Source: Solirubrobacter ginsenosidimutans (GTDB lineage: Bacteria > Actinomycetota > Thermoleophilia > Solirubrobacterales > Solirubrobacteraceae). From it: DNA of 64,000 nucleotides. Of the stretch, positions 11,425 through 38,488 are shown one piece after another. The notes beneath the pieces were generated by a model. It worked only from the letters and a program-made list of their open reading frames with translations, was not told the DNA's origin and did no database searches. Position 1 is the stretch's first letter. Every line of letters begins with the position of its first letter. A program made the translations under genes and the position numbers. The stretch lies in assembly GCF_027587205.1 (NCBI RefSeq), contig NZ_JAPDOD010000004.1, positions 305,834 through 369,833 on the forward strand, written 5' to 3'.

Positions 11425-12789
11425 ATGCAACCGCGCGCCGGGACATCCGAACTGCAGACGCGGACGATGCGCAAGGTCGCGTTCCGGCTTATGCCCGTCC
11501 TGCTGGGCCTCTACATCATCGCCTACCTGGACCGGGTGAACGTCAGCTTTGCGCAGGACAGCCTGGAGGCGGACCTGGGCTTCTCCGGGGCCGTCTACGG
11601 CTTCGGAGCCGGGGTGTTCTTCATCGCCTACTTCCTCTTTGAGGTGCCGAGCAACCTCGCGTTGCACAAGTTCGGCGCGCGCAAGTGGATCGCCCGCATC
11701 ATGCTCACCTGGGGACTCATCTCCGCGTGCATGGTGTTCGTGCAGGGACCACTGAGCTTCTACGCCATCCGTTTCCTGCTCGGCGTCGCCGAGGCGGGCT
11801 TTTTCCCCGGGATGATCCTCTACCTGTCGCTGTGGTTTCCGTCCCGTGAGCGCGCCCGCGCCGTCGGCTTCTTCATGTCGGCGATCGCGATCTCCTACGC
11901 CATCGGTGCGCCACTGTCGGCCGGCATCATGTCCCTGTTCGACGGGGTGTGGGGGCTCAAGGACTGGCAGTGGCTGTTCGTCCTCGAGGCGATCCCTGCG
12001 GTGCTCGCCAGCGGCTTCGTGCTGTTCCACCTCACCGACCGGCCCGCGGAGGCCAAATGGCTGGCGGCCGACGAGAAGCGCTGGCTGGTCGACCGCCTCG
12101 AGGCCGAGGAGGAGACGCGGCTCACGCGCGAGCGTCACTCGATCGGCGATGCCCTGAAGGATCGGCGCGTGCTCGCGTTCGGCCTCCTGTACTTCTGCAT
12201 GGTCGTCAATGTCTATGGCATCTCGTTCTGGATCGGCGAGATCGTCGACAAGATCGACGGGGTCGGTGGTGTCGGCAAGGGCTTCGTCGTCGCGATCCCG
12301 TACGCGACCGCGATCGTCGGCCTCGTGCTGCTCTCGCGCCGCTCCGATCGCACCGGCGAGCGCAAGCTCCACACCGCGATCCCGCTCGCGATCGCGGCCG
12401 TGGCCTTCGCGACCTCCACGATCGTCTCGCCCGTGGCGGCGATCGCCGCGCTGGCCGTCGGCCTGTTCTTCCTGCTCGGCGCGCACCCGGTGTTCTGGTC
12501 GATGCCGGCCGCGCTGCTCAGCGGTAGCGCGGCTGCCGCGGGGATCGCGCTGATCAATTCGATCGGCAACCTCGGCGGATTCGCCGGTCCCTACCTCGTC
12601 GGGCTCATGAAGGACGCCACCGGCTCAACCGATGCGGGCCTCCTGGTGCTCGCGGCGATCCTCGCGTTCGGCTCCTTCCTGGCCACGCGCGTCGCGCACG
12701 ACCCAGCGCTGGAGCGCCCGCCGAAGCCGCGGACCCGCTTCGTCCGCCCGGAGGTGGAGGCAAAGCCCGTGCCGGCGTCCACCGCGTAG
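11425..12789 (+). CDS. MFS transporter, anion:cation symporter family
   Basis: 454 residues with twelve predicted membrane segments. The start of the domain, LMPVLLGLYIIAYLDRVNVSFA, and the motif PGMILYLSLWFPSRERARAVGFFM in the first half are characteristic of the ACS family (phthalate, glucarate, galactonate and tartrate carriers). It should import an organic acid with a cation across the cytoplasmic membrane. No catabolic gene is adjacent, so the substrate is unknown. The ATG is preceded by AT-rich sequence (GAGAGATAT). Confidence 0.9.
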   Translation: MQPRAGTSELQTRTMRKVAFRLMPVLLGLYIIAYLDRVNVSFAQDSLEADLGFSGAVYGFGAGVFFIAYFLFEVPSNLALHKFGARKWIARIMLTWGLISACMVFVQGPLSFYAIRFLLGVAEAGFFPGMILYLSLWFPSRERARAVGFFMSAIAISYAIGAPLSAGIMSLFDGVWGLKDWQWLFVLEAIPAVLASGFVLFHLTDRPAEAKWLAADEKRWLVDRLEAEEETRLTRERHSIGDALKDRRVLAFGLLYFCMVVNVYGISFWIGEIVDKIDGVGGVGKGFVVAIPYATAIVGLVLLSRRSDRTGERKLHTAIPLAIAAVAFATSTIVSPVAAIAALAVGLFFLLGAHPVFWSMPAALLSGSAAAAGIALINSIGNLGGFAGPYLVGLMKDATGSTDAGLLVLAAILAFGSFLATRVAHDPALERPPKPRTRFVRPEVEAKPVPASTA

Positions 12790-17533: not shown

Positions 17534-20500
17534 TCAGTAGCCCACCAGCGCGGCCCTGAGCGCGCGGGCGGAGCGGGTGGAGGCCACGTTCTGCTTGGCC
17601 TCGTGCAGCACGATCGCCTGGTCGAGCGCCGCCACGGCCTCGTCGCCCTTGCCGAGTACGTCGAGCACGTCGGCGAGGTCGGTCAGCGCCTGTGCCGTCA
17701 GGAAGTCGGCGTCGGTGCTCTGCGCGGTCGTCACGCTGAAGCGGGCCAGCCGCTCGGCCTCGCCGGTCTCCCCCGCCCGCGCCAGCACCCGCCCGCGGGT
17801 GCCGGCCCAGAGGATCTGCGATGCCGCGTCGTGGCGGTAGTTGAGCTTCTCGCTGAGGTGGGTGAAGCGCAGCGCGTCGTCGTAGGCGCCCAGGGCACAG
17901 CGGGTGCGGGCCAGGAACGCCAACACGGTCGGCAGCCGCCCGCGCTCGCCCACCCGCTCAAGCGCCGCGTAGGCGCGCTCCAGCCCCGGCTCGACGATGC
18001 TCGGGTCGCCGGCGATCAACTCGACCATCGCGGCGTAGATCTCCAGGCCCGCGAGCTTGAGGCCGAGCCCGTGCTCCTCCAACCGCTGGCGGGCGCCCTG
18101 GTAGAGGTCGCGGGCGATGTCGATGTTCATCCGCATCGCCTCCAGCACCGCCATCGTGATGTCGGTCACGGCGGTGAGGGAGATGCCCTCGGCGACGTTC
18201 CCGCGCGCGGCCTCGCAGCGCCGGATGCCGACGTCGACCGGGCTCGGGCCGACGACGGTCGCGCGCAGCAGCGTGTTGAACGCCTCGGAGCGCTCACGCG
18301 CATCGCCCACCCGCGTGGCGTAGACGATCGAGCGGTCCAGCGCCGCCTCGACCAGCCCCATGTGCAGCCGCGTCCAGTGCAGGAAGCCGATGTGATTCCA
18401 AGCGCGCGCGAGCCCCGAGTCGTCGCCGTAGCGGTCGAAGATCTTGATCGCCTCCTCGGCCGTCTCGTGCATCGCGGCGACGTCCGGGTGCGGGTCGGCG
18501 AACAGCCGCTGGTTGGAGAGCTCGAGCATCGTTCGCGCGACGAGCGTCTCCTCGTGCTGGGCACGGGCGGCCTTGAGCGCGGTGCGCAGGATCGGGCCGG
18601 CCGCGGGGAAGTCGCCGCTGTCGCACAGCGCGGAGCCGAGCGCGAGCAGCACGTCGGGCCGGACGTCACCGCCGGCCTCGAACAGGCTCGCGGCGCGCGT
18701 CAGCAGGCGGCTGGCCGCGCTCGCGTCGCCGCGGGCGAGCGCGCGGCGGCCCGCGACCGCCAGCCGCTCGGCCGCGCTCGTCGCGAGCTGGCGCGCCTCC
18801 TCGTCGACCCGCTCGAGCTCGGCGCGGTAGCCGAACGCCTGCTCGAGGTGGTAGCCGACGGACTCGTCGACGTTCTCCTCGCGCCGCGCCAGGCTGTTGG
18901 CGAAGTCCTCGTGGACGCGCCCGCGGACCTCCTTCGCGCACACGGCGTAGGCGACGTCGCGGATCAGGATGTGGTGGAAGCGCAGGACGTCCTCGCCGCC
19001 GATCGGGCTGCGGTCGGGCGTGATCAGCCCGCGGTGCACGAGTTCGCGCAGGTGCTGCCCCGCCGCCGGCCGCGACTCGACCGGCAGCAGCTCCGTCACC
19101 GCGCTGGCGGCGAACCGGCGGCCGATCACCGACGCCCGCTCGATCACCGCCCGCTCGCCGTCCCCGAGCCGGTCCAGCCGCGCGGCGACGAGCGCCTGGA
19201 TCGTGGCCGGGATGCGCTGCTCGCCGCCGCACCCGTCCTCGATGCGCATCGCGAACATCTGCTCGATGAACAGCGGGTTGCCCTCGGCGGCGTCGAGCAC
19301 GTCGGTGGGGCGCGAAAGCGGTGCCGAGCGTTCGTCCACGAGGTGCTCGAGCAGCCGCGCGGCGTCGTCCCCGCTGAGCGGCGAGAGCGAGATCGCCGCG
19401 ACGCCGGCGCGCCCGCCGATCCACGCGCGCCGCGACTCCAGGAACTCCGGACGGGCGAGGCAGAGCACGAACAGCGGCGCGGTCGTGAGCCACTCGACGA
19501 GGTACTCGAGCAGGTCGATCAGCCGCGGCTCGGCGGCGTGCGCGTCCTCGAGGATGAGCACGAGCGGCCCCGCGTCCGCGATGGTCTCGAGCAGGCGGCG
19601 CAGCGCCCACGGCACCCGGTCCTGATCGGCCGCGATGTCGCCCAGGCCGAGCCCCGCGTGGACGAGATCGGCGACCTGATCGGCGTCCTCGGCGTCGCCC
19701 AGCAGGCGCCGGATGGCATCGCGCGAGCCGCCGCCGGCGAGGTCGGCGAGCGCGTCGCGCAGCGGCCACAGCGAGCTGCCGTCGCCGAGCGCGCCGCACT
19801 GCGCCACGAGCGTCGTCGCGCGCTTGACGACGCGGTGCCGAAACTCCTGCGCGAGCCGCGACTTGCCCAGCCCCGCCTCGCCGACGACGGTCAGCAGCTG
19901 CGCGCTGCGCGTCGTCGTCGCCCGCTCGAACGCGGCCAACGCGATCGCGAGCTCCTCGTCACGGCCGACCATCGGCATCGAGTGACGGCGGCGCACCGCG
20001 GGCGCGTTGGGGATGATCGCGCTCAGCAGCCACGCGTCGTGGTCCGCGGGCTGCACGCGGATCGCGTCCGGCGCGAGCCGGCGGGTCGCCTCGCTGAGCA
20101 GGATCTGGCCCTCGCGCGCGATGCTGGCCAGCCCGACCGCGCCGTCGAGCGGGTTCCCGAACAGCGACATCTCCTCGCCGGTGCCCTCGGCGACGATCTC
20201 ACCCGCGTCGAGCCCGATTCGCAGGTCGAGCGTGCCGGGCTCGCCATGCATCAGCGTCGTGACGCCCTCGCGCAGCTGGACGGCGGCGTTGAGCGCGCGC
20301 AGCGCGTCGTCCTCGTGCGAGGCGGAGAGGCCGAACACGCCGAGCAGCTGGGAGCCGAGGCCGGCGTGGAAGCGGCCGCCGTGGCGCACGATGATCCGGA
20401 CGGCCTCGTTGCGGCCGAGCGCCATCAGGCGGCGCCCGACCTCGGGATCGGCGTGGTTGTAGCGGCTGAGGGTCCGCAAAGTGACGACGAGCACCGTGAC

Positions 20501-21334
20501 GCTGCGACGGATGACCGGCGGAGCGACGACGACCGCGGACGGCGTTTCCTCGACCACCACCGGCACCGGTCGGCGCTCTTTGACTGTGACGAGGTCCAGC
20601 GCCGGGTCCTGCTGGAGCACGCGCTGCTCGAGCGCCCGCAGCTCACGGCCAGGATCGAGGCCGAGCTGGTCGACGAGCAGGTCGCGGGTGGTGCGGTAGG
20701 CGGCGAGCGCGTCGGCCTGGCGCCCGGAGCGGTACAGCGCGAGCACGAGCTGCCCGGCGAGGCGCTCGCGGGTCGGGTGCGCGGCGGAGAGCTGCTGAAG
20801 TTCGGGTATGAGCGCGGCGTGCCAGCCCGCGGCGAGATCGGCGTCCACGCGCGCCTCGAGCGCGATCAGCCGTTGCTCCTCCAGGCGGGTGATCGCCTGC
20901 CGGGCGAACGGCTCGAACGCCAGCTCCGCCAGCGGCGGCCCGCGCCACAGGTTCAGCGCCTCGCGCAGCACGGCGGCCGCGTGCTCGGGCTCCCCCGCGG
21001 CGAGCGCGTCGCGGCCGGTCGCGACGAGCGCGTTGAAGCGCTCGGAGTCCAGCTCCCCCGGCTCGACCCGCAGGCGGTACCCGCCGGGGGTCGTGGCCAC
21101 GATGTCCCCGCCGCCGAGCGCCTTGCGCAGCCGCGAGACGTGGACCTGCACGGTCTTGGTCGCGCGGCCGGGCGCGTCCTCTCCCCAGAGGGCGAGCGCG
21201 AGCCGCTCGGCGCTCACCGGTTCATTGGCATGCAGCAGCAATACCGCGAGAACCGCGCGCGGTTTGACCCCGCCAAGCGCCAGGACGCCATCGTCGCCGG
21301 CGACCTCTAGTGGCCCGAGAATTCGGAATTGCAT
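17534..21334 (-). CDS. Giant SARP/BTAD - cyclase-homology - AAA ATPase - TPR regulator
   Basis: 1266 residues. Residues 1-95 are an OmpR-like DNA-binding domain (KTVQVHVSRLRKALGG... TTPGGYRLRV); about 96-245 are the BTAD helical domain of SARP activators. About 275-430 resemble a class III adenylate cyclase, but the first metal site (normally an FADLVGST-like stretch) is VTLRTLS, so catalysis is doubtful. An AAA/LAL-type ATPase follows, with Walker A GEAGLGKS (485-492) and Walker B LVLILEDAHAAEP (591-603). The rest is TPR-like helical repeats. It is divergent from the protease operon at 21477-25797, separated by 142 bp, and is the obvious candidate to control it. Confidence 0.9.
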   Translation of the reverse strand: MQFRILGPLEVAGDDGVLALGGVKPRAVLAVLLLHANEPVSAERLALALWGEDAPGRATKTVQVHVSRLRKALGGGDIVATTPGGYRLRVEPGELDSERFNALVATGRDALAAGEPEHAAAVLREALNLWRGPPLAELAFEPFARQAITRLEEQRLIALEARVDADLAAGWHAALIPELQQLSAAHPTRERLAGQLVLALYRSGRQADALAAYRTTRDLLVDQLGLDPGRELRALEQRVLQQDPALDLVTVKERRPVPVVVEETPSAVVVAPPVIRRSVTVLVVTLRTLSRYNHADPEVGRRLMALGRNEAVRIIVRHGGRFHAGLGSQLLGVFGLSASHEDDALRALNAAVQLREGVTTLMHGEPGTLDLRIGLDAGEIVAEGTGEEMSLFGNPLDGAVGLASIAREGQILLSEATRRLAPDAIRVQPADHDAWLLSAIIPNAPAVRRRHSMPMVGRDEELAIALAAFERATTTRSAQLLTVVGEAGLGKSRLAQEFRHRVVKRATTLVAQCGALGDGSSLWPLRDALADLAGGGSRDAIRRLLGDAEDADQVADLVHAGLGLGDIAADQDRVPWALRRLLETIADAGPLVLILEDAHAAEPRLIDLLEYLVEWLTTAPLFVLCLARPEFLESRRAWIGGRAGVAAISLSPLSGDDAARLLEHLVDERSAPLSRPTDVLDAAEGNPLFIEQMFAMRIEDGCGGEQRIPATIQALVAARLDRLGDGERAVIERASVIGRRFAASAVTELLPVESRPAAGQHLRELVHRGLITPDRSPIGGEDVLRFHHILIRDVAYAVCAKEVRGRVHEDFANSLARREENVDESVGYHLEQAFGYRAELERVDEEARQLATSAAERLAVAGRRALARGDASAASRLLTRAASLFEAGGDVRPDVLLALGSALCDSGDFPAAGPILRTALKAARAQHEETLVARTMLELSNQRLFADPHPDVAAMHETAEEAIKIFDRYGDDSGLARAWNHIGFLHWTRLHMGLVEAALDRSIVYATRVGDARERSEAFNTLLRATVVGPSPVDVGIRRCEAARGNVAEGISLTAVTDITMAVLEAMRMNIDIARDLYQGARQRLEEHGLGLKLAGLEIYAAMVELIAGDPSIVEPGLERAYAALERVGERGRLPTVLAFLARTRCALGAYDDALRFTHLSEKLNYRHDAASQILWAGTRGRVLARAGETGEAERLARFSVTTAQSTDADFLTAQALTDLADVLDVLGKGDEAVAALDQAIVLHEAKQNVASTRSARALRAALVGY

Positions 21335-21476: not shown

Positions 21477-21737
21477 ATGGAGAAGCAGCACATGGAAGTG
21501 GTCGTCGAGCTCCGGCAGGGCGCGAGCTCGCAGATCGTCGCGGACTGGCTCGCGCAGTTCGGACTCGAGGTCATGCCGCTCGCGGTCGGCCTGCTGGCGA
21601 TGGGAGACGCGACGGCGGTCCGGACCGCGTTCGGACCCGGCGACCCGATCGACCTCGCGGTCCCGGACGCGCTGCGCGAGCACGTGGAGTACGCGGCGAT
21701 CGTCCCGCCGAAGCATTTCTACGAGAGTCCGCTGTAA
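21477..21737 (+). CDS. 86-residue protein preceding the S8 peptidase, possible pro-domain/inhibitor
   Basis: Starts at ATG 21477 (ATG 21492 is an alternative giving 81 residues). It has no signal peptide and no cysteine. The pattern VVVELRQGASSQIVADWLAQFGLEVMPLAVGLLAMGD (strand, helix, strand, strand) is the small alpha/beta shape of subtilisin pro-domains (I9-like), and a similar pattern occurs in residues 55-95 of the next protein. It ends 18 bp before the peptidase gene, whose Shine-Dalgarno (AAGAGGAGGG) overlaps its stop. A chaperone, inhibitor or substrate role is inferred only from position and shape. Confidence 0.6.
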   Translation: MEKQHMEVVVELRQGASSQIVADWLAQFGLEVMPLAVGLLAMGDATAVRTAFGPGDPIDLAVPDALREHVEYAAIVPPKHFYESPL

Positions 21738-21755
21738 GAGGAGGGAGCCCCCGCG

Positions 21756-23507
21756 ATGTCCGTCCCGTCAGGGATCATCCATTTCGAGACCGGAGACGCC
21801 CTGCCGGGCGTGGTCGTCGGCTACGTCTCGATCCGGTCGCAGGGCGGAGTGTCGTTCTTGGACGCCGACGACCTGACCGACCTGCCGAAGTTCTTCGCGA
21901 CGGACGAGGACCGCGCGGCGGCGCGCAAGACGCTCGAGGAGCTCGAGTTCCACATCGTGGCCGAGAGCCGGCTGGGCATGGCCATCGCCGGGCCGCCGCA
22001 GGCCTGGGCGGCGCTGACCGACGGCGAGCTCGTCGCCTACGAGCAGCGCACCCGCGCGCGCGGCGGGCGGATCGAGGACGTCACGCACATCGACATCGTG
22101 GGCCCGGGCCAGCCCGACGCGCCCGGCGCCGGCAAGGCCAAGCCGGACGAGATCGAGGGCGTGGTCATCGAGCGCCCCCGGGCGCCGCAAGGCCCGATCC
22201 CGCCGCCGAACTCGCGCTTTCACCTGCGGCTTCCCGACGACGTCGCCATGATCCTGAAGGCCCCGGCCGCTCACCGCGCCGGCTACACGGGACGCGGCGT
22301 GACGGTCGCGATGGTCGACAGCGGCTACGGCGCCCATCCGTTCTTCGAGGCGCACGCCTACGCGGTGCGGCCCCCGGTCACGGTGGTCCCCGGCACGACG
22401 CCGGCGGGCGACCCGATCGGGCACGGGACCGGCGAGGCCGCCAATGTCTTCGCGATCGCACCGGACGCCGAGCTGTGGCCGGTCCGTGCTTCCAACCAGC
22501 AGGGGGACATGGTCGCCGCGGTCGCCGGGTTCATGCGCGCGAAGATGGACGGTCCCGACGTGCTGTCGAACTCGTGGGGCGGCGACTACCCCGACCCGCT
22601 CCCGCCCGAACCGCACGCGGCCGACCGGGCGCTCGTGCTCGAGATCCTCGACGCGATCGACCAGGGCATCATCGTCGTCTTCGCCGCCGGCAACGGCAGT
22701 TGCGGGGTCGAGGCGCAGGTCCCGGGCGTGATCGCCGCGGGCGGCGTGTACGCCAACGCCGACCTCGACCTGCAGGCGTCGACGTACGCGAGCGGGTACC
22801 ACAGCGACTGGTTCGGCGGCGTGGACGTGCCGACCGTGTCCGGTCTCGTGGGGATGCGCCCGCGCGCCTCCTACATCGCGATGCCGGTCCCGCGCGGGTG
22901 CCGGATCGACCTCGAGCGCGCCTTCGCGGGTGGCGACGACCCGCCCGACGGAACGACGCCCTATGACGGCTGGGCGCTGTTCTCCGGCACGTCGGCGGCC
23001 TGCCCGCAGGTTGCGGGCGCGGCCGCGGTGCTTCGCGGGATGTGGAGGCAGGCGACGCCGAAGCAGGTGTGCGACGCGCTCTGCGCAGGCGCGACGGACG
23101 TCTACGTCGGCCACAACCACCCGCGCTTCAACCATCCCGCGCAGCGCGGGCGCGACCTGGCCACCGGCCACGGTCTCATCAATGTCTCGGCGGCGCTGGA
23201 AGCGCTCGCGGACACAGCCAGCCAACAACAGAAGGAGACTGCCGTGCCTGACGACCTCTTGGGCGTTGCCATCAGCCAGGGCCACGCTCTCACCCTCGCG
23301 GACAAGCTCGCGAACGACCAGGGCTTCCGGGACCACCTCGAAGCCGACCCCGTCAAGGCGCTCGCCAGCATCAACGTCGACGCGTCGGGCTGGACGCCGC
23401 CGGAGAAGCTCAAGCTCGCCCCGGCGACCGAGTTCGAGGGCCTGTACGCCTCGATGCAGGACAACCGCAAGCAGTTCCGGACGCTGATCGCATACCTGTC
23501 CGACTGA
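21756..23507 (+). CDS. Subtilisin-like (S8) peptidase with C-terminal NHLP-like peptide module
   Basis: 583 residues without signal peptide. Residues 1-110 look like a pro-domain. The subtilisin domain (about 165-490) has Asp188 (VAMVDSGYG), His223 (PIGHGTGEA), Asn313 (AAGNGSCG) and Ser413 (FSGTSAACPQVAGAAA), so it should be active in the cytoplasm. After residue 490 the frame runs on into an 87-residue segment, LADKLANDQGFRDHLEADPVKAL and beyond, which resembles a RiPP leader of the NHLP/nitrile-hydratase type. That segment has its own GTG and ribosome binding site (see 23244). PatA/PatG-type S8 enzymes cleave RiPP precursors; this enzyme may do so for its own tail. Confidence 0.85.
   Translation: MSVPSGIIHFETGDALPGVVVGYVSIRSQGGVSFLDADDLTDLPKFFATDEDRAAARKTLEELEFHIVAESRLGMAIAGPPQAWAALTDGELVAYEQRTRARGGRIEDVTHIDIVGPGQPDAPGAGKAKPDEIEGVVIERPRAPQGPIPPPNSRFHLRLPDDVAMILKAPAAHRAGYTGRGVTVAMVDSGYGAHPFFEAHAYAVRPPVTVVPGTTPAGDPIGHGTGEAANVFAIAPDAELWPVRASNQQGDMVAAVAGFMRAKMDGPDVLSNSWGGDYPDPLPPEPHAADRALVLEILDAIDQGIIVVFAAGNGSCGVEAQVPGVIAAGGVYANADLDLQASTYASGYHSDWFGGVDVPTVSGLVGMRPRASYIAMPVPRGCRIDLERAFAGGDDPPDGTTPYDGWALFSGTSAACPQVAGAAAVLRGMWRQATPKQVCDALCAGATDVYVGHNHPRFNHPAQRGRDLATGHGLINVSAALEALADTASQQQKETAVPDDLLGVAISQGHALTLADKLANDQGFRDHLEADPVKALASINVDASGWTPPEKLKLAPATEFEGLYASMQDNRKQFRTLIAYLSD
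23231..23246 (+). promoter_or_regulatory. Internal ribosome binding site and GTG inside the peptidase frame
   Basis: GAAGGAG (23231-23237) is followed by six bases and then GTG (23244-23246) in the same frame as the peptidase. This is as good a Shine-Dalgarno as those before the operon's other genes and lies exactly at the boundary between the peptidase and the leader-like module, where selection for an in-frame ribosome site is unlikely by chance. Confidence 0.6.
23244..23507 (+). CDS. Putative RiPP precursor, NHLP/nitrile-hydratase-leader-like (internal in-frame start)
   Basis: From the internal GTG the product is 87 residues, MPDDLLGVAISQGHAL and so on. The block LADKLANDQGFRDHLEADPVKALASINVD follows the consensus of NHLP-type leaders, in which a helix is followed by FR-x-x-L-x-x-DP-x-x-AL. 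The remaining 42 residues (GWTPPEKLKLAP..., YASMQDNRKQFRTLIAYLSD) would be leader end and core. There is no Cys, so classical thioether or thiazole chemistry on Cys is excluded; Ser, Thr and backbone chemistry remain. I recall an NCBI 'putative modified peptide' family of similar shape found with SagB-related dehydrogenases. The precursor role is inferred. Confidence 0.55.
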   Translation: MPDDLLGVAISQGHALTLADKLANDQGFRDHLEADPVKALASINVDASGWTPPEKLKLAPATEFEGLYASMQDNRKQFRTLIAYLSD

Positions 23508-23517
23508 GGCCGAGCCC

Positions 23518-24693
23518 GTGCGCGTGAAGCGGGCGAGCTTCGTCCTGTTCGAACTCGTGGACGAGCAGCGCGTCCACCTCGCCGCCCTCCTGGGCGGCGT
23601 GGTCGACCTGACGTCGCAACCGCCCGACATTCACGCGCTCGCGCTCCTCACCGGCCGGCGGGAGCGGATGACCCACGCCGAGTTCGGCGCGCTGTTGTCC
23701 GTTCCCGCCGGTCAGTTCGTCGATGCGGGTGATGACGAGCACGTCGTCTCGCTCGCCCGCCGCGGGTTGCTGATCTCAGACTCCGACGACGAGCCGTTCG
23801 CCTCGCTGCGCGCCCGCGAGGCCGATCTGCTCGAGCACGGCTGGAACGTCCACGCGGCCGGCTACCACTTCATGACCAAGCGCTCGGGGATGGACCTCCG
23901 GGAGGACCCGGCGTACCAGCCTGGTGAGCGCGCGGCCTCGCCCGAGCTCAAGCGGGCGTTCGTGGACTCCTTCGGCGCCTCCCCGCCGGCGTTTCACTCG
24001 GCCGCGCCGGCGGATGCGCCGCGCGTGGCGCTGCCCCGGGCGGCGCGGGACGAGGGGCTGTTCCGGGCGCTTGCGGCGCGGCGCACGACACGGTCGTTCG
24101 CGCGCTCGGAGACCATGCGCTCCGACGATCTCGCGACGGTGCTGCAGTGGGTGTTCGGCGCGCACGGCACGGCGGAGACGGACCTCGGCACGGTCATCCG
24201 CCGCACCAGCCCGGCGGGCGGGGCGCGGCACTCGATCGAGGCCTACGCGCTGATCTCGCAGGTCGAGGGCGTTGCGCCCGGGATCTATCACTACGACGTG
24301 CGCGAGCACGCGCTCGCCCTGCTCTCGCCGCTGCCTGGAGACGCGGTGCGCGAGCTGGCGACGGTGTTCACCTGCGGCCAGGACTACTTCGGCGACGCGC
24401 ACGTGTCCTTCGTCCTGACCAGCCGCTTCGAGCGTTCTTACTGGAAGTACCGCGCGACCGACAAGGCCTACGCCGCGATCCTCGCCGAGGTCGGGCATCT
24501 CAGTCAGACCCAGTACCTCGTCGCGGCCGAGCTCGGGCTCGGCTCCTACGTGACGCTGGCGGTCAACTCGCACGACATCGAAGCTCGGCTCGGGCTCGAC
24601 GGCGTCGACGAGGGCGTCGTGGCGATGACGGGCTGCGGCCCGCGCACTCCGGGCTACTCACCGCTCGAGCTGCGGTTCACGCCGTTAGGGTGA
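23518..24693 (+). CDS. SagB-like FMN dehydrogenase (putative peptide-maturation dehydrogenase)
   Basis: 391 residues from a GTG ten bases after the peptidase stop. Residues 1-165 are a poorly conserved N-terminal domain (winged-helix-like, possibly leader-binding). About 178-388 are a nitroreductase/SagB fold, with FMN-contact segments RRTTRSFARS, SPAGGARHSIEAY and LSQTQYLVAAELGLGSYVTLAV. SagB enzymes oxidise thiazolines or oxazolines in RiPPs; a separate SagB-related family acts in little-studied peptide-modification loci without YcaO. No cyclodehydratase gene is in the window, so this resembles the second group. Cofactor assignment is good; the substrate is inferred. Confidence 0.78.
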   Translation: MRVKRASFVLFELVDEQRVHLAALLGGVVDLTSQPPDIHALALLTGRRERMTHAEFGALLSVPAGQFVDAGDDEHVVSLARRGLLISDSDDEPFASLRAREADLLEHGWNVHAAGYHFMTKRSGMDLREDPAYQPGERAASPELKRAFVDSFGASPPAFHSAAPADAPRVALPRAARDEGLFRALAARRTTRSFARSETMRSDDLATVLQWVFGAHGTAETDLGTVIRRTSPAGGARHSIEAYALISQVEGVAPGIYHYDVREHALALLSPLPGDAVRELATVFTCGQDYFGDAHVSFVLTSRFERSYWKYRATDKAYAAILAEVGHLSQTQYLVAAELGLGSYVTLAVNSHDIEARLGLDGVDEGVVAMTGCGPRTPGYSPLELRFTPLG

Positions 24694-24720
24694 GCGCACG
24701 GTTTACGGCGGGAGGTCTGG

Positions 24721-25797
24721 ATGCGCGTCGCAGTTCTCGGAGCGGGTAACGGAGGGGTCGCGTCAGCGTTCGACTTCGCCCAGCACGGTCACGACGTCTC
24801 GCTCTACGCACCGCCGCAGTTCGGCTCGCACCTGGCCGCGATCGACGCGGCGGGCGGCGTCACCGCGTTTGGCGATCTCGAGGGCTTCGCCCCGATCCGG
24901 TACGCCGGCAACGACATCGCCGAGGCGATGGAGGCTGCCGAGCTGACGGTGATCGTCGGCCCGGCGTACGCCACCGAGCCGCACGCGTTCCTCGCCGGGC
25001 CCTACCTGGACGACGGCGCGGCGGTGCTGATCTGCCCCGGGTCGTGCGCCGGCGCGATCGCCTTCAAGCGCAGCGCCGGGTTCGATCTCGACGACGAGCG
25101 CTACATCGTCGGCGAGACGAGCACGCTGCCCTACGCGGTGCGGATCACCGAGCCGGGCGTCATCAACGTCTTCCTCAAGCTCAAGACCGGCGTCTATCTC
25201 GCGGGGCTCCCGCGGGCGGGGACGGACAGGCTCTACGACCTGATCAAGGACGTCTGGCCGGCGGTCGAGAAGGCCGAGAGCGTCTTCCAGACCACGCTGC
25301 AGAACGGCAACCCGGTGATCCACCCAGCGGTGACGCTGCTCAACGCGGCCCTGCTCGAGCGCACCAGCGGCGGCTTCCTGTTTTACGAGGAGGGCGTGAC
25401 CGAGGGCGTCGGGCGGCTGATCGAGGCCGTCGACAACGAGCGGCTGGCGATCGCGGCCGCGCTCGGCGTGAAGGTCCTCTCCGAGCCCGAGATCGGCGTC
25501 AAGCAGGGCTACATGACCGAGCTGAACTACTCGACGGGCTACAGCAAGGCCCCGGGCTTCCTCGGCATCGCCGCGCAGGACAGGCTCGAGCACCGCTACC
25601 TGACCGAGGACGTTGGCTTCTCCCTGGTCTTCCTCGCCGACCTCGCCGCCCACGTGGACGTTCCGACGCCGGTGATCGACGGAGTGATCACGATCGCGTC
25701 GGCCGTGCTCGGGCGCGACCTCCGGGCCGGCGCTGTCCGGACCGTCGCCACCCTCGGCCTCGACGGCCTGTCCGCGAGCGAGCTCGCCGCCATCTGA
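24721..25797 (+). CDS. Octopine/nopaline-type (opine) dehydrogenase
   Basis: 358 residues. The N-terminal Rossmann motif is VAVLGAGNGGVASAFDFA. The C-terminal domain has the opine dehydrogenase catalytic region with His and Asn (NPVIHPAVTLLNAALLE), ending in HVDVPTPVIDGVI. Family members reduce the imine formed between an amino acid and an oxo-acid using NAD(P)H, or the reverse. A good Shine-Dalgarno (GGGAGG) precedes the ATG, 27 bp after the dehydrogenase. Placement in the peptide-maturation operon suggests it acts on an amino-acid or peptide amine, but it could be an unrelated metabolic gene. Confidence 0.85.
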   Translation: MRVAVLGAGNGGVASAFDFAQHGHDVSLYAPPQFGSHLAAIDAAGGVTAFGDLEGFAPIRYAGNDIAEAMEAAELTVIVGPAYATEPHAFLAGPYLDDGAAVLICPGSCAGAIAFKRSAGFDLDDERYIVGETSTLPYAVRITEPGVINVFLKLKTGVYLAGLPRAGTDRLYDLIKDVWPAVEKAESVFQTTLQNGNPVIHPAVTLLNAALLERTSGGFLFYEEGVTEGVGRLIEAVDNERLAIAAALGVKVLSEPEIGVKQGYMTELNYSTGYSKAPGFLGIAAQDRLEHRYLTEDVGFSLVFLADLAAHVDVPTPVIDGVITIASAVLGRDLRAGAVRTVATLGLDGLSASELAAI

Positions 25798-35601: not shown

Positions 35602-37683
35602 GTGCACGAGGTCCTAGGCGCCTGCCCGCTCGACTGCCCAGACGGGTGCAGCTGGGTCGTCACGGTCGACGACGACGGCGAGGCGATCAACCTCAAAGGC
35701 AACCGCGCACATCCCTTCACCGCGGGCGCGTTGTGCGCGAAGGTCAACGGGTATCTCGAGCACACGAAGGCGCCCGATCGCCTGCTGTACCCGCTCAAGC
35801 GGGTCGGCGCCAAGGGCGAGGGGCGGTTCGAGCGGATCTCGTGGGACGAGGCGCTCACGACGATCGCCGCCAAGCTGCAGTACGTCAAGGACACCTACGG
35901 CGGCGAGGCGATCTGGCCGTTCCAGGGCACCGGGACGCTCGGATACGTCCAGGGCCTGGAGGGCCGCGCCGGCCAGCGGCTGTGGAACGTGCTCGGCGCG
36001 TCGCGGCATGACATGACGGCCTGCAGCGTCGCCGGACGGCAGGGCGCGACGTACGTCACCGGCACCGCCGCCGGGATGGATCCGGAGACGTTCGCGGAGT
36101 CGAAGCTGATCCTGCTGTGGGGCACGAACACGCTCACGAGCGGCCACCACCTGTGGAAGTTCATCCTCAAGGCGCGCAAGCGCGGCGCGCACATCGTCGC
36201 GATCGACCCGATCCGGACGCGCACCGCGGCACAGGCGGACGAGCACCTCGCACCGCTCCCCGGCACCGACGCCGCGCTCGCTCTCGGGCTGCTCAACGTG
36301 ATCGTGAGCATGGGCGCCGAGGACCGGGACTACCTCGATTCAAACACCGTCGGCTGGCCGGAGTTCAAGGAGCGCATCCTCGCCTTCCCGCCATCGAAGG
36401 CCGCCGAGATCACCGGCATCGACGAGGCGACGATCGTCGCGCTCGGCGAGCGGATCGCGACCACCCGCCCCACCGGCATCCGCTGCACCATGGGCATGCA
36501 GCGTCACGCAGGCGGCGGCAACGCGATGCGCCTGCTGTATGCGCTCCCGGGCGTGACGGGCGACTGGCAGTACCCCGGCGGCGGCGCCTCCTACAGCACC
36601 AGCGGGCGCTTCATGCCCGACCTGGTCTCCACGTATCGCGACGACCTGCTGCAACAGCCGGTCCGCACGCTCTCGATGACCCAGCTCGGCCACACGCTGC
36701 TGCGCGCCGACGACCCTCCGGTCAAGGCGCTGGTGATCTACGGCGCCAACCCGATGAGCAGCAACCCCGACCAGCACCGCGTGCGCGAAGGGCTGCAGCG
36801 CGAGGACCTGTTCACCGTCGTGATCGAGCAGTTCCCGACCGACACCGTGGATTACGCCGACATCGTCCTGCCCGCGACGATGCAGACCGAGCACCTGGAC
36901 GTCAACGACGGCTACGGCCACATGTACATCCACCTCAACCGCCCGGCGACCGCGCCTCCCGGCGAGTGCCTGTCCGGCACCGAGACGTTCCGGCGCCTCG
37001 CCAAGGCGATGGGGCTCGAGGAGCCGTCGCTCTACGACGACGACGAGACGCTCGCCCGCACGCTGCTCGGTGACGCCGACTTCGAGCGCCTGTACGAAAC
37101 GGGCTGGATGCGGCTGGATTACCAGACGCCGTACGTCCCCTTCACCGAAGGCTTCCCCACGCCCTCGGGCAAGCTCGAGTTCTACTCCGAGAGCGCGCGC
37201 GACGCCGGCCACGACCCGCTCCCCGGCTACGTCGCGCCGGTCCGCGCCGAGACCGACGACGCGCACCCGCTCGCGCTGATCGCCCCCGCGAGCCACTGGT
37301 TCCTGAACTCGATGTTCGCCAACAAGCCGGACCTGATGAAGAAGGCCGGCGGCCCGCGGATCGAGCTCCACCCCGACGACGCGCGAGCGCGCGGCCTCCA
37401 GACGGGCGACACCGCCACCGTCTTCAACGCCCGCGGCAGCTTCGAGGCCGCCGTCGAGATCTCCGACCGCGTCCGCCCGGGCGTGATCGCGTCCACGAAG
37501 GGCTACTGGCTCAAGCACATCCGCGGCGGCGCGAACGTCAACGCGACCGTCGAGGAGCGCGACGCCGACATGGCCGGCGGGGCGATCTTCCACGACAACC
37601 GCGTCGAGGTCGAGCGGGTTAGAGTCGCGGACGATGATCCAGGCCGTCTGGGACAAGCAGAGCCAGTGGTCGCAAGCCGCTGA
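35602..37683 (+). CDS. Molybdopterin-dependent oxidoreductase with [4Fe-4S] cluster
   Basis: 693 residues from a GTG. The N-terminal cluster ligands are Cys8, Cys12, Cys16 and Cys45 (CPLDCPDGC ... GALCAK). The bis-MGD domains follow (DMTACSVAGRQGATY, LLWGTNTLTSGHH, VAIDPIRTRTA, VIYGANPMSSNPDQ, DIVLPATMQTEH), with a C-terminal molybdopterin dinucleotide-binding domain (RIELHPDDARARGL, ANVNATVEERDADMAGGAIFHDNRVEVERV). There is no Tat signal, so it is cytoplasmic, like the assimilatory nitrate reductase/formate dehydrogenase-like group. Partner and substrate are unknown. The 3' end overlaps the next gene by 50 bp. Confidence 0.88.
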   Translation: MHEVLGACPLDCPDGCSWVVTVDDDGEAINLKGNRAHPFTAGALCAKVNGYLEHTKAPDRLLYPLKRVGAKGEGRFERISWDEALTTIAAKLQYVKDTYGGEAIWPFQGTGTLGYVQGLEGRAGQRLWNVLGASRHDMTACSVAGRQGATYVTGTAAGMDPETFAESKLILLWGTNTLTSGHHLWKFILKARKRGAHIVAIDPIRTRTAAQADEHLAPLPGTDAALALGLLNVIVSMGAEDRDYLDSNTVGWPEFKERILAFPPSKAAEITGIDEATIVALGERIATTRPTGIRCTMGMQRHAGGGNAMRLLYALPGVTGDWQYPGGGASYSTSGRFMPDLVSTYRDDLLQQPVRTLSMTQLGHTLLRADDPPVKALVIYGANPMSSNPDQHRVREGLQREDLFTVVIEQFPTDTVDYADIVLPATMQTEHLDVNDGYGHMYIHLNRPATAPPGECLSGTETFRRLAKAMGLEEPSLYDDDETLARTLLGDADFERLYETGWMRLDYQTPYVPFTEGFPTPSGKLEFYSESARDAGHDPLPGYVAPVRAETDDAHPLALIAPASHWFLNSMFANKPDLMKKAGGPRIELHPDDARARGLQTGDTATVFNARGSFEAAVEISDRVRPGVIASTKGYWLKHIRGGANVNATVEERDADMAGGAIFHDNRVEVERVRVADDDPGRLGQAEPVVASR

Positions 37684-38488
37684 CGACCTCAAGGACCGCG
37701 TCACCACCGCGCGCGACTTCGTCCTGACGTTCACGATCGTCGGGGCGGTCCTCAGCACCGCGGGCGCGGGCGTCGGCCTGGACACCACGACCGGGCAGGT
37801 CCTCGTCTACCTCGCCGCGGTGGTCGCCGCCGGGTCCGCGATCGCGACCGCCTTCGCGGGCAAGGAGAACTCGGAGCCCTGGACCCGCGCGCGGTCGGTC
37901 GCGGAGGCGATCAAGTCCGAGGCCTTCACGTACCTCGCCCAGGCGGGCGACTACGCCGCCGCGACGCGCGACGACCGGCTCGCCGAGCAGGTCGCGCGGC
38001 TCGAGGAAGGCGCCGCGGACCTCTACGTGCGCGTGACGGCGTTCAAGCCCAAGCAACGCGTCCCACCGGTGGTCACGGACGCCGGCACCTATGCGACCGA
38101 GCGCGTGAAGCAGCAGGTCGAGGGCTACTACCTCCCCAAGGCCCGCGAGCTCGACGGCTGGATCCGGAGGGCGCGGCTGCTCGTGGTGGTGCTGGGAGCG
38201 ATCGGCTCGGCGTTCGCCGTCGCGGCCGGCAAGTTCGAGCTCAGCGGCCTGGCCGTCTGGGTGCCGGTCGTCACCAGCATCACGTCCGCGATCACCGCGC
38301 ACGTGGCCGCGGAACGCTGGGACCTCCTGCGGCTCGAATACTCGCGGACGGCGCTGCAGCTGTCGCACCTGCTCTCGTCGTTCGAGCGCGACAAGCTCCA
38401 GCCCGGCGAGTTCGTCGTCGGCTGCGAGACCGTGATCACGGCGCAGAACAAGGCCTGGCTCGCCAAGCTCGCCGAGCCGCCCAAGTGA
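37634..38488 (+). CDS. DUF4231/SLATT-like membrane protein
   Basis: 284 residues with two pairs of membrane segments: about 29-50 with 58-76, and about 181-200 with 206-226. Each pair is followed by a helical cytoplasmic part. This is the two-TM-plus-helix plan of SLATT/DUF4231 proteins, duplicated here. SLATT domains are proposed membrane effectors in nucleotide-signalling conflict systems. No SMODS, SLOG or cyclase partner is adjacent. It starts 50 bp inside the preceding gene in another frame, so the two are likely cotranscribed. Confidence 0.65.
   Translation: MIQAVWDKQSQWSQAADDLKDRVTTARDFVLTFTIVGAVLSTAGAGVGLDTTTGQVLVYLAAVVAAGSAIATAFAGKENSEPWTRARSVAEAIKSEAFTYLAQAGDYAAATRDDRLAEQVARLEEGAADLYVRVTAFKPKQRVPPVVTDAGTYATERVKQQVEGYYLPKARELDGWIRRARLLVVVLGAIGSAFAVAAGKFELSGLAVWVPVVTSITSAITAHVAAERWDLLRLEYSRTALQLSHLLSSFERDKLQPGEFVVGCETVITAQNKAWLAKLAEPPK

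Follow-up and report, generated by a model that had tools for sequence, protein, structure and literature searches.

The operon described here, from Solirubrobacter ginsenosidimutans, may encode a RiPP-like pathway that lacks YcaO and whose precursor, an NHLP-type leader with a short core at its C-terminus, shares one reading frame with the protease that matures it, a reading to which we give about even odds (roughly 0.5). The operon lies at positions 21477-25797 of the window, which is the whole 64-kb stretch of DNA that was analysed, and comprises four genes on the plus strand: a small prodomain-like protein (86 aa, 21477-21737), an S8 protease fused to an NHLP-like module (583 aa, 21756-23507), a SagB-type FMN dehydrogenase (391 aa, 23518-24693) and an opine-type NAD(P) dehydrogenase (24721-25797). 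They are separated, in this order, by 18, 10 and 27 nt, in agreement with the first-pass annotation, which had placed the four genes at the same positions in one operon with spacings of 10-28 bp.

In Pfam scans of 46 window ORFs (6 at E <= 1, 10 at E <= 0.001 and 30 at E <= 1e-5; 22 of the 65 ORFs predicted by GC frame are outside this set as such), no YcaO, radical SAM, PqqD or lanthionine-synthetase domain is found, which bears out the earlier claim that the window has no YcaO, LanM, radical SAM or PqqD gene. Since the YcaO cyclodehydratase that marks azole RiPPs (TOMM/LAP) is absent from these 46 ORFs, an azole/TOMM pathway is set aside. No MNIO or HEXXH gene is recognised among the scanned ORFs, and no transporter adjoins the operon, the nearest one found being an MFS gene at 11425-12789.

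The protease matches PF00082 with 72 bits, and the residues of its Asp/His/Ser triad (D188, H223 and S413) and its oxyanion asparagine (N313) are the same in each of the 38 S8 sequences aligned in A4. The AlphaFold2 model of the 583-residue fusion has a mean pLDDT of 81.7 and a pTM of 0.81, and its top Foldseek match is the intact pro-kumamolisin 1t1e (E 1.5e-18, TMq 0.52, 584 alignment columns including gaps); residues ~1-160 (21756-22235, plus strand) form a prodomain-like N-terminal part by the Foldseek match. In A4, MAFFT spread the 12 free-standing rows over window residues 73-583, so these rows were of less help than intended for the modelled module. The 86-residue protein, which has a 54% identical homologue in locus L001 of Solirubrobacter soli, has no Pfam or NCBIfam match at E <= 1, and it is probably a relative of the protease's own N-terminal prodomain, to judge from the hhalign alignment of four such small proteins with the S8 N-terminal domain (84.6%, E 6.8e-06). 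The pair of S8 protease and small protein also occurs at L129, L143 and L145, where no RiPP gene is recognised by eye. Other C-terminal extensions occur in the S8 family, as in an 828-residue member at L144.

The module (87 aa, 23244-23504, plus strand) is predicted to be all-helical, with its helices within residues 501-581 of the AlphaFold2 model. It scores 32.4 bits against TIGR04509 (E 7e-08), slightly short of the curated threshold (34), the whole fusion protein scores 27.7 bits, and NF038399 gives 21 bits for the module against a cut-off of 40. The counterpart module of S. soli reaches 32.0 or 36.5 bits in two scans with TIGR04509 (cut-off 34). A profile of the window's module and 17 free ones matches nitrile hydratase alpha (E 1.7e-06). 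The first-pass annotation had read the end of the peptidase as an NHLP-type module; its relation to NHLP and its homology to TIGR04509-type genes hold up, and the curated cut-off is narrowly missed. By profile comparison, the module is homologous to free-standing genes that neighbour dehydrogenases of this kind, and hhalign aligns the fused and free-standing modules at 98.8% (E 4.9e-17), a value that is flattered because the free set was gathered with the fused profile. When the module region alone serves as query, just two of 80 candidates, P0001 and P0002, are found. No other such module turns up when all six frames of the window are searched, the next-best matches having E 9.6 with the fused-module profile and E 4.9 with the free-standing profile.

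The SagB-type dehydrogenase scores 262.4 bits against TIGR04511 (SagB_rel_DH_2), over the curated cut-off of 240, and 109.9 bits against TIGR03605 (cut-off 78.4). Its profile matches 11 distinct PDB sequences, which include the CyaGox entries 8pz5/5lq4 and McbC 6gos, and its Lys310-Tyr311 pair is kept in all 24 aligned homologues. PF00881 is the only Pfam domain of the 391 residues, with no fused MNIO domain. With a profile built from eight fused modules, free-standing modules are detected at 40 of the 80 dehydrogenase loci (domain E < 0.01, 41 ORFs); these loci all belong to the 47 best-matching ones (L001-L047), and the other 33 (L048-L080) have no module at E < 0.01. Independently of this profile, both of these free-standing genes that were tested pass the TIGR04509 cut-off, with 38.1 bits at L012 and 35.7 bits at L023. 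The Xanthomonadaceae system that the first-pass annotation had mentioned, in which a SagB-related dehydrogenase accompanies a putative modified peptide, is present among these loci.

This distribution bears on the idea that the module is a C-terminal inhibitory or folding domain and that the pathway is one of controlled proteolysis with no peptide product. Such a role would suit a protease with an intact triad, a prodomain-like N-terminus and a separate prodomain-like partner; nevertheless, we find it improbable, given the free-standing modules beside dehydrogenases in 40 loci and an S8 tblastn match (E <= 1e-3) in just one of the 80, that of S. soli. Somewhat less unlikely, though still doubtful, is that the module serves for docking or targeting, as a former leader that now recruits the protease to the dehydrogenase or some other machine, while a separate, unlinked peptide is the real substrate. 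In S. soli, one other protein matches TIGR04509 over the cut-off, and there the NHLP-like domain opens a protein of 1992 residues in an injection-system-like locus, so not every domain of this kind has to be a precursor; the short and variable tails of the fused clade and the tolerance of the S8 family for other extensions point the same way. Against docking, no second module is present in the window or elsewhere in the 21-kb S. soli locus, and in other genomes the module is encoded by a separate gene adjacent to that of the dehydrogenase.

The fusion of protease and module in one frame is found in nine proteins, namely that of S. soli and eight database proteins (P0001, which is the window's own, P0002, P0004, P0046, P0052, P0085, P0109 and P0118). 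In S. soli it is one open frame at 8199-10001 of L001, and its stop codon shares one base with the start codon of the dehydrogenase gene. The first-pass annotation had allowed that the module might be an ordinary C-terminal domain of these peptidases; this is rejected, as the module is absent from 110 of the 118 S8 homologues tallied (P0058 and P0084, S8 rows with no contig, were left out of the tally) and the fused proteins are one branch of the family. In a quick tree search, from which P0114, a CBS fusion tallied as unfused, was dropped, this branch has an SH-aLRT of 93 and one change accounts for it. The conserved fusion fits a single origin, as judged from these sequences, and repeated fusion inside the branch is not needed. 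Fused S8 proteins and dehydrogenases come from equal-size contigs of the same source in two cases, P0085/P0138 (12257) and P0118/P0134 (11896), and of different sources in P0052/P0222 (2725). A shared contig is only suggestive, because 3 of the 110 unfused proteins coincide in the same manner (P0025/P0221 from the same source, P0044/P0197 and P0047/P0154 from different ones).

At the module boundary, a Shine-Dalgarno-like AAGGAG (23232-23237) lies 6 nt upstream of the in-frame GTG at 23244, which is the module's first codon (23232-23246 together, plus strand). This GTG is possibly a second start for a free product of 87 residues, or the relic of a once separate gene. It could be supposed that the internal start yields an excess of free precursor, that the full-length fusion serves only for processing and that the fusion itself arose by chance when a lost stop codon allowed read-through. 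The rarity of such 6-nt sites inside genes, found at 3 of the 783 in-frame ATG or GTG codons within predicted genes of the window, 23244 included, speaks for this, but among the 65 predicted (longest-ORF) starts just 2 have one, and the sites thus mark starts poorly in this genome. Furthermore, the S. soli junction has no such site by eye, which together with the conservation of the fusion in nine divergent proteins argues that the fusion itself is kept, and we accord the read-through explanation little probability.

The candidate core is the C-terminal tail DNRKQFRTLIAYLSD (23460-23504, plus strand), proposed from tail alignments, and residues 579-583 of the fusion have pLDDT < 50 in the AlphaFold2 model. 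The candidates for oxidation are F574 (23475-23477) and Y580 (23493-23495). All nine fused tails have a Phe within their last 22 residues; in the same stretch of the 41 free tails, 16 have no Phe and 8 have no aromatic residue. In alignment A1, the position of Y580 is occupied by Tyr in P0002 and P0004, Phe in P0052 and P0118, Val in P0046, Ala in P0085 and Leu in P0109, and the S. soli residue at this position is Ser by eye.

Divergent to the operon is a gene of 1266 residues (17534-21334, minus strand), which the first-pass annotation had missed and which is probably a regulator with SARP/BTAD DNA-binding, weak nucleotidyl-cyclase, AAA ATPase and TPR parts. It scores 157.9 bits against TIGR03903 (cut-off 705.75) and has no TIGR04510 match at E <= 1. 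Its S. soli counterpart, which is 58.8% identical, has the same divergent position, and tblastn matches to the gene are found in L001-L007. The opine-type dehydrogenase (PF02317, 136.5 bits) has no counterpart by tblastn (E <= 1e-3) in any of the 80 dehydrogenase loci, that of S. soli included; its earlier assignment to the core of the pathway is not supported, and by this distribution it is probably a local addition.

In the fused-precursor pathway that we favour, the SagB-type enzyme would bind the NHLP-like module and oxidise an aromatic residue of the disordered tail, F574 or Y580, to a dehydroamino acid, by analogy with the nitroreductase domain of PflD, which acts on a Phe of PflA (PMC12636437). 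The tethered subtilisin would be restrained by its own prodomain, and perhaps also by the small prodomain-like protein, and would then free the modified tail, acting either in cis or on another protomer. Regulation of the operon would fall to the divergent protein, and the internal start may supply extra free precursor in the window's lineage. If this scheme is correct, it predicts a loss of 2 Da in the tail, and the TIGR04509/TIGR04511 systems gain a test organism, Solirubrobacter soli DSM 22325.

More tentatively, and at clearly less than even odds, the fusion of protease and substrate may have evolved repeatedly as a general architecture for RiPP precursors of Solirubrobacterales and related groups, with the protease translated together with its peptide and processing therefore stoichiometric and self-contained. 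Besides the window and S. soli, this would include two weaker parallels. At L114, an S8 protein with a Gly/Pro-repeat tail lies beside a RiPP radical SAM methyltransferase (B12 radical SAM C-methyltransferase); S8 relatives adjoin TIGR03975 RiPP methyltransferases there (640 bits) and at L134 (632 bits). L002-L004 encode HELxEMLCDP proteins with NHLP-like tails, whose HE..E motif we take to be that of a metallopeptidase, together with the same kind of dehydrogenase. Profile searches of NCBIfam (two of the three proteins), Pfam and PDB give nothing useful for these proteins, their structure prediction has a mean pLDDT of 36.1, and hhalign aligns their tails with the modules at only 9-13%. Against 1000 letter shuffles the tails of L003 (0 reach the score) and L002 (0 or 5, by profile) are above chance and that of L004 is not (226 or 397).

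Among known systems, that of TIGR04509, TIGR04510 and TIGR04511 shares with the window a dehydrogenase family over its cut-off, a homologous NHLP-like module and, in some relatives, a cyclase- or kinase-TPR protein nearby, whereas the window's module is fused to an S8 protease and its divergent gene has a SARP part and a TIGR03903 match. The phrase "peptide maturation dehydrogenase" occurs once in PMC8939145. Cyanobactin pathways also combine an S8 protease (PatA/PatG) with a SagB-like oxidase (CyaGox), but the window has no YcaO found, its precursor-like module is fused to the protease, and the latter scores only 15.6 bits against TIGR03895, the cyanobactin PatA/PatG protease family with a cut-off of 421.05. 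No precursor-protease fusion is known in cyanobactins. In borosins, the precursor is fused in cis to its N-methyltransferase, and if our reading is true, the precursor-protease fusion is a counterpart of this arrangement, with the difference that the fused enzyme is a protease and not the modifier. No paper on such a fusion turned up in literature searches limited to open-access PMC. The pfl/pos systems (Pseudomonas, Os1348 cluster) resemble the window in having an NHLP-like precursor and a SagB/nitroreductase-type enzyme without YcaO. Six of the 80 loci, all from Pseudomonas, have a PflA-like precursor with the pattern (I/V)FD..QQ..ARMD; they were recovered through the alignment of the window's dehydrogenase, and their dehydrogenases are 32-38% identical to that of the window in the best segment. 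According to PMC12636437, the YcaO-free nitroreductase domain of PflD makes Z-dehydroPhe at the Phe of AIFD in PflA, PflD also carries a fused MNIO domain, and a HEXXH enzyme is encoded in the cluster, which has no protease gene near the precursor. The window, among whose scanned ORFs neither an MNIO domain nor a HEXXH enzyme is recognised, has a protease, and here the candidate protease and the candidate precursor are parts of one polypeptide.

The locus at 21477-25797 on the + strand is real, conserved and unusual, and it reads at sequence level as a variant of the TIGR04509/TIGR04511 system with a putative precursor-like module within an active-looking subtilisin. Its four ORFs, all on the + strand and separated by gaps of 18, 10 and 27 nt, lie where the first-pass annotation had placed its single four-gene operon. 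The second ORF is an S8 protease, whose catalytic residues are all intact, and the fourth belongs to Octopine_DH (Pfam). The third ORF matches the NCBIfam model TIGR04511 (SagB_rel_DH_2, “putative peptide maturation dehydrogenase”) with 262.4 bits against a cut-off of 240. The earlier claim that YcaO, radical SAM and PqqD genes are absent also holds for the 46 window ORFs scanned, a set that leaves out 22 of the 65 predicted ORFs as such. One ORF at 37634-38488 of the window carries SLATT_1 and DUF4231 domains; going by Pfam names, SLATT families are tied to nucleotide-signal systems. No prior description of this S8-module layout was found in open-access PMC literature listings.

The C-terminal 87 residues of the protease, proposed earlier to be an NHLP-type module, do match TIGR04509 (“NHLP-related RiPP peptide”, NCBIfam), with 32.4 bits, below the cut-off of 34; both of the two free-standing genes tested exceed that cut-off on their own. 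A profile of eight fused modules was searched against all six-frame ORFs of 80 dehydrogenase loci (the best 80 of 170 from the dehydrogenase alignment search, L001-L080), and free-standing modules were found in 40 of these loci (41 ORFs, domain E < 0.01), together with the fused module of Solirubrobacter soli (L001). Module-positive loci, this fused one included, make up 41 of the 47 top-ranked (L001-L047). At the same threshold no free-standing module was found in L002, L003, L004, L005, L014 and L016, although an NHLP-like ORF is recognised by eye in L005, and no locus of L048-L080 has a module, five Pseudomonas loci among them reaching E 0.032-0.12. Fused and free module profiles match at 98.8% (E 4.9e-17), a value inflated by the free set having been gathered with the fused profile. 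The window module combined with 17 free modules matches nitrile hydratase alpha chains (E 1.7e-06). AlphaFold2 predicts an S8 domain that is mostly confident but weak at residues 146-157 and 369-408; the module is predicted to be helical, with helices within 501-581, and the final five residues score below 50.

The module is present in 8 of the 120 S8 homologues listed (652 passed the threshold), the window's own included, and absent from 110 of the 118 tallied among the matches listed. Four unfused rows aligned with fused ones end exactly where the linker starts. A database search with the module alone recovered only P0001, the window's own protein, and P0002; this low yield probably reflects divergence and the word-based search, because P0004 and others also hold the module. 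In a quick-search tree built on the S8 part with 122 rows, nine of them fused, the fused proteins form one branch (SH-aLRT 93) adjoining the unfused P0025, so the data fit a single fusion event, retained during divergence to about 50% identity. In S. soli DSM 22325 the genes follow the order seen in the window: a divergent regulator-like gene with 58.8% identity to the window's, the small protein, the S8-module fusion and the dehydrogenase. Its fusion is a single 600-codon frame whose stop shares one base with the dehydrogenase start. A Shine-Dalgarno-like site and a GTG lie at the start of the window's module and may be a relic, mark a second start or be there by chance; such a site precedes 3 of 783 internal starts but only 2 of 65 predicted gene starts in the window.

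The small protein encoded first is probably similar to the prodomain-like N-terminus of the S8 protease, with which it aligns at 84.6% (hhalign). By eye, a similar protein stands beside S8 relatives in L114, L115, L129, L132, L143, L144 and L145, and none was seen in L130, L134 and L142. In L132 (12-1809) the pair adjoins phage-tail-like, injection-system-like genes, also by eye. The divergent gene encodes a SARP-cyclase-AAA-TPR protein, with tblastn matches near the dehydrogenase in L001-L007 and, at up to 10 kb, in L012 and L023; its AAA or SARP part alone is matched within 10 kb in L051, L052, L057, L067, L077 and L080. For the opine dehydrogenase, tblastn gave no match in any of the 80 dehydrogenase loci.

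The dehydrogenase (E <= 1e-70) occurs in 4 of 146 genomes of the S. soli family, those of L001-L004, and TIGR04511 is above cut-off in 4 of 299 genomes of its class. The S8 family (E <= 1e-60) is rare, being found in 3 of 299 class, 5 of 396 phylum and 4 of 150 genomes sampled, the last from the genus of the L061 genome; these samples include the centre genomes, with only 3-10 candidates scored in most genomes. Only S. soli, among the 299 class genomes sampled, has both families. TIGR03975 is above cut-off in six of the 299, and an S8 relative accompanies it only in G239 (L114/L121; short loci read).

In L114 (8699-12571) an S8 relative with a Gly/Pro/Ile-repeat C-terminus is followed by a TIGR03975 RiPP radical SAM C-methyltransferase (640 bits) and then by a small protein of the prodomain-like type; this may be another form of protease-precursor fusion. 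L134 (5851-9620; L061's genome, labelled Streptomyces) has a SARP-TPR gene upstream, a 140-aa GDQ-repeat protein and an unfused S8 relative downstream of a TIGR03975 methyltransferase (632 bits). Directly upstream of the dehydrogenase, L002 (8744-9976), L003 (2602-3648) and L004 (8891-9976) encode HELxEMLCDP...EVCDPCE proteins with no useful family match and a seemingly NHLP-like C-terminal region; against 1000 shuffles this likeness ranks above all or nearly all in L003 and L002, and L004 fails. Free-standing TIGR04509 precursors in L012 (8550-9512, 38.1 bits) and L023 (8698-9828, 35.7 bits) are followed by many tandem QTYGPA(S/T)YAA copies, which resembles the layout of a multi-core precursor; the dehydrogenase, a cyclase-AAA protein and an S-Me-THD-like protein are encoded nearby.

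An NHLP-like domain alone is no proof of a precursor, because a 1992-aa protein of S. soli (L139, 9776-15754, + strand) also starts with one that exceeds the TIGR04509 cut-off. By eye, that protein lies in a contractile-injection-like locus, where the fold may serve in cargo loading or docking. A docking role for the window's module is the main rival to the precursor-like reading.

For a precursor-like module, the dehydrogenase would be the candidate modifying enzyme. Its Lys310-Tyr311 pair, kept in 24 of 24 aligned homologues, would correspond to the conserved and catalytically important Lys-Tyr motif of azole dehydrogenases described in PMC11055893, and its WKY stretch aligns with that of CyaGox in the profile search of solved structures. 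This search gave 11 matches (E <= 1e-5), led by the putative nitroreductase 3eo7, with CyaGox and McbC among the remainder. A hydrophobic-aromatic stretch (VIF, IVF) recurs in many of the free tails, and the window tail has IAY. Which tail residue is the target is a guess, because the last 22 residues lack Phe in 16 of 41 free tails and any aromatic residue in 8, and the fused tails are variable. For the related gene Os1348, whose protein is a helical dimer, PMC7726476 reports that loss lowers antibiotic activity and that plasmid complementation gave no recovery. Six of the 80 loci (best 80 of 170) encode an (I/V)FD..QQ..ARMD precursor, and their dehydrogenases match the window's at 32-38% in the best segment. 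The same precursor type occurs in the pfl/pos clusters, where, according to PMC12636437, a YcaO-free nitroreductase domain makes Z-dehydrophenylalanine from the Phe of AIFD.
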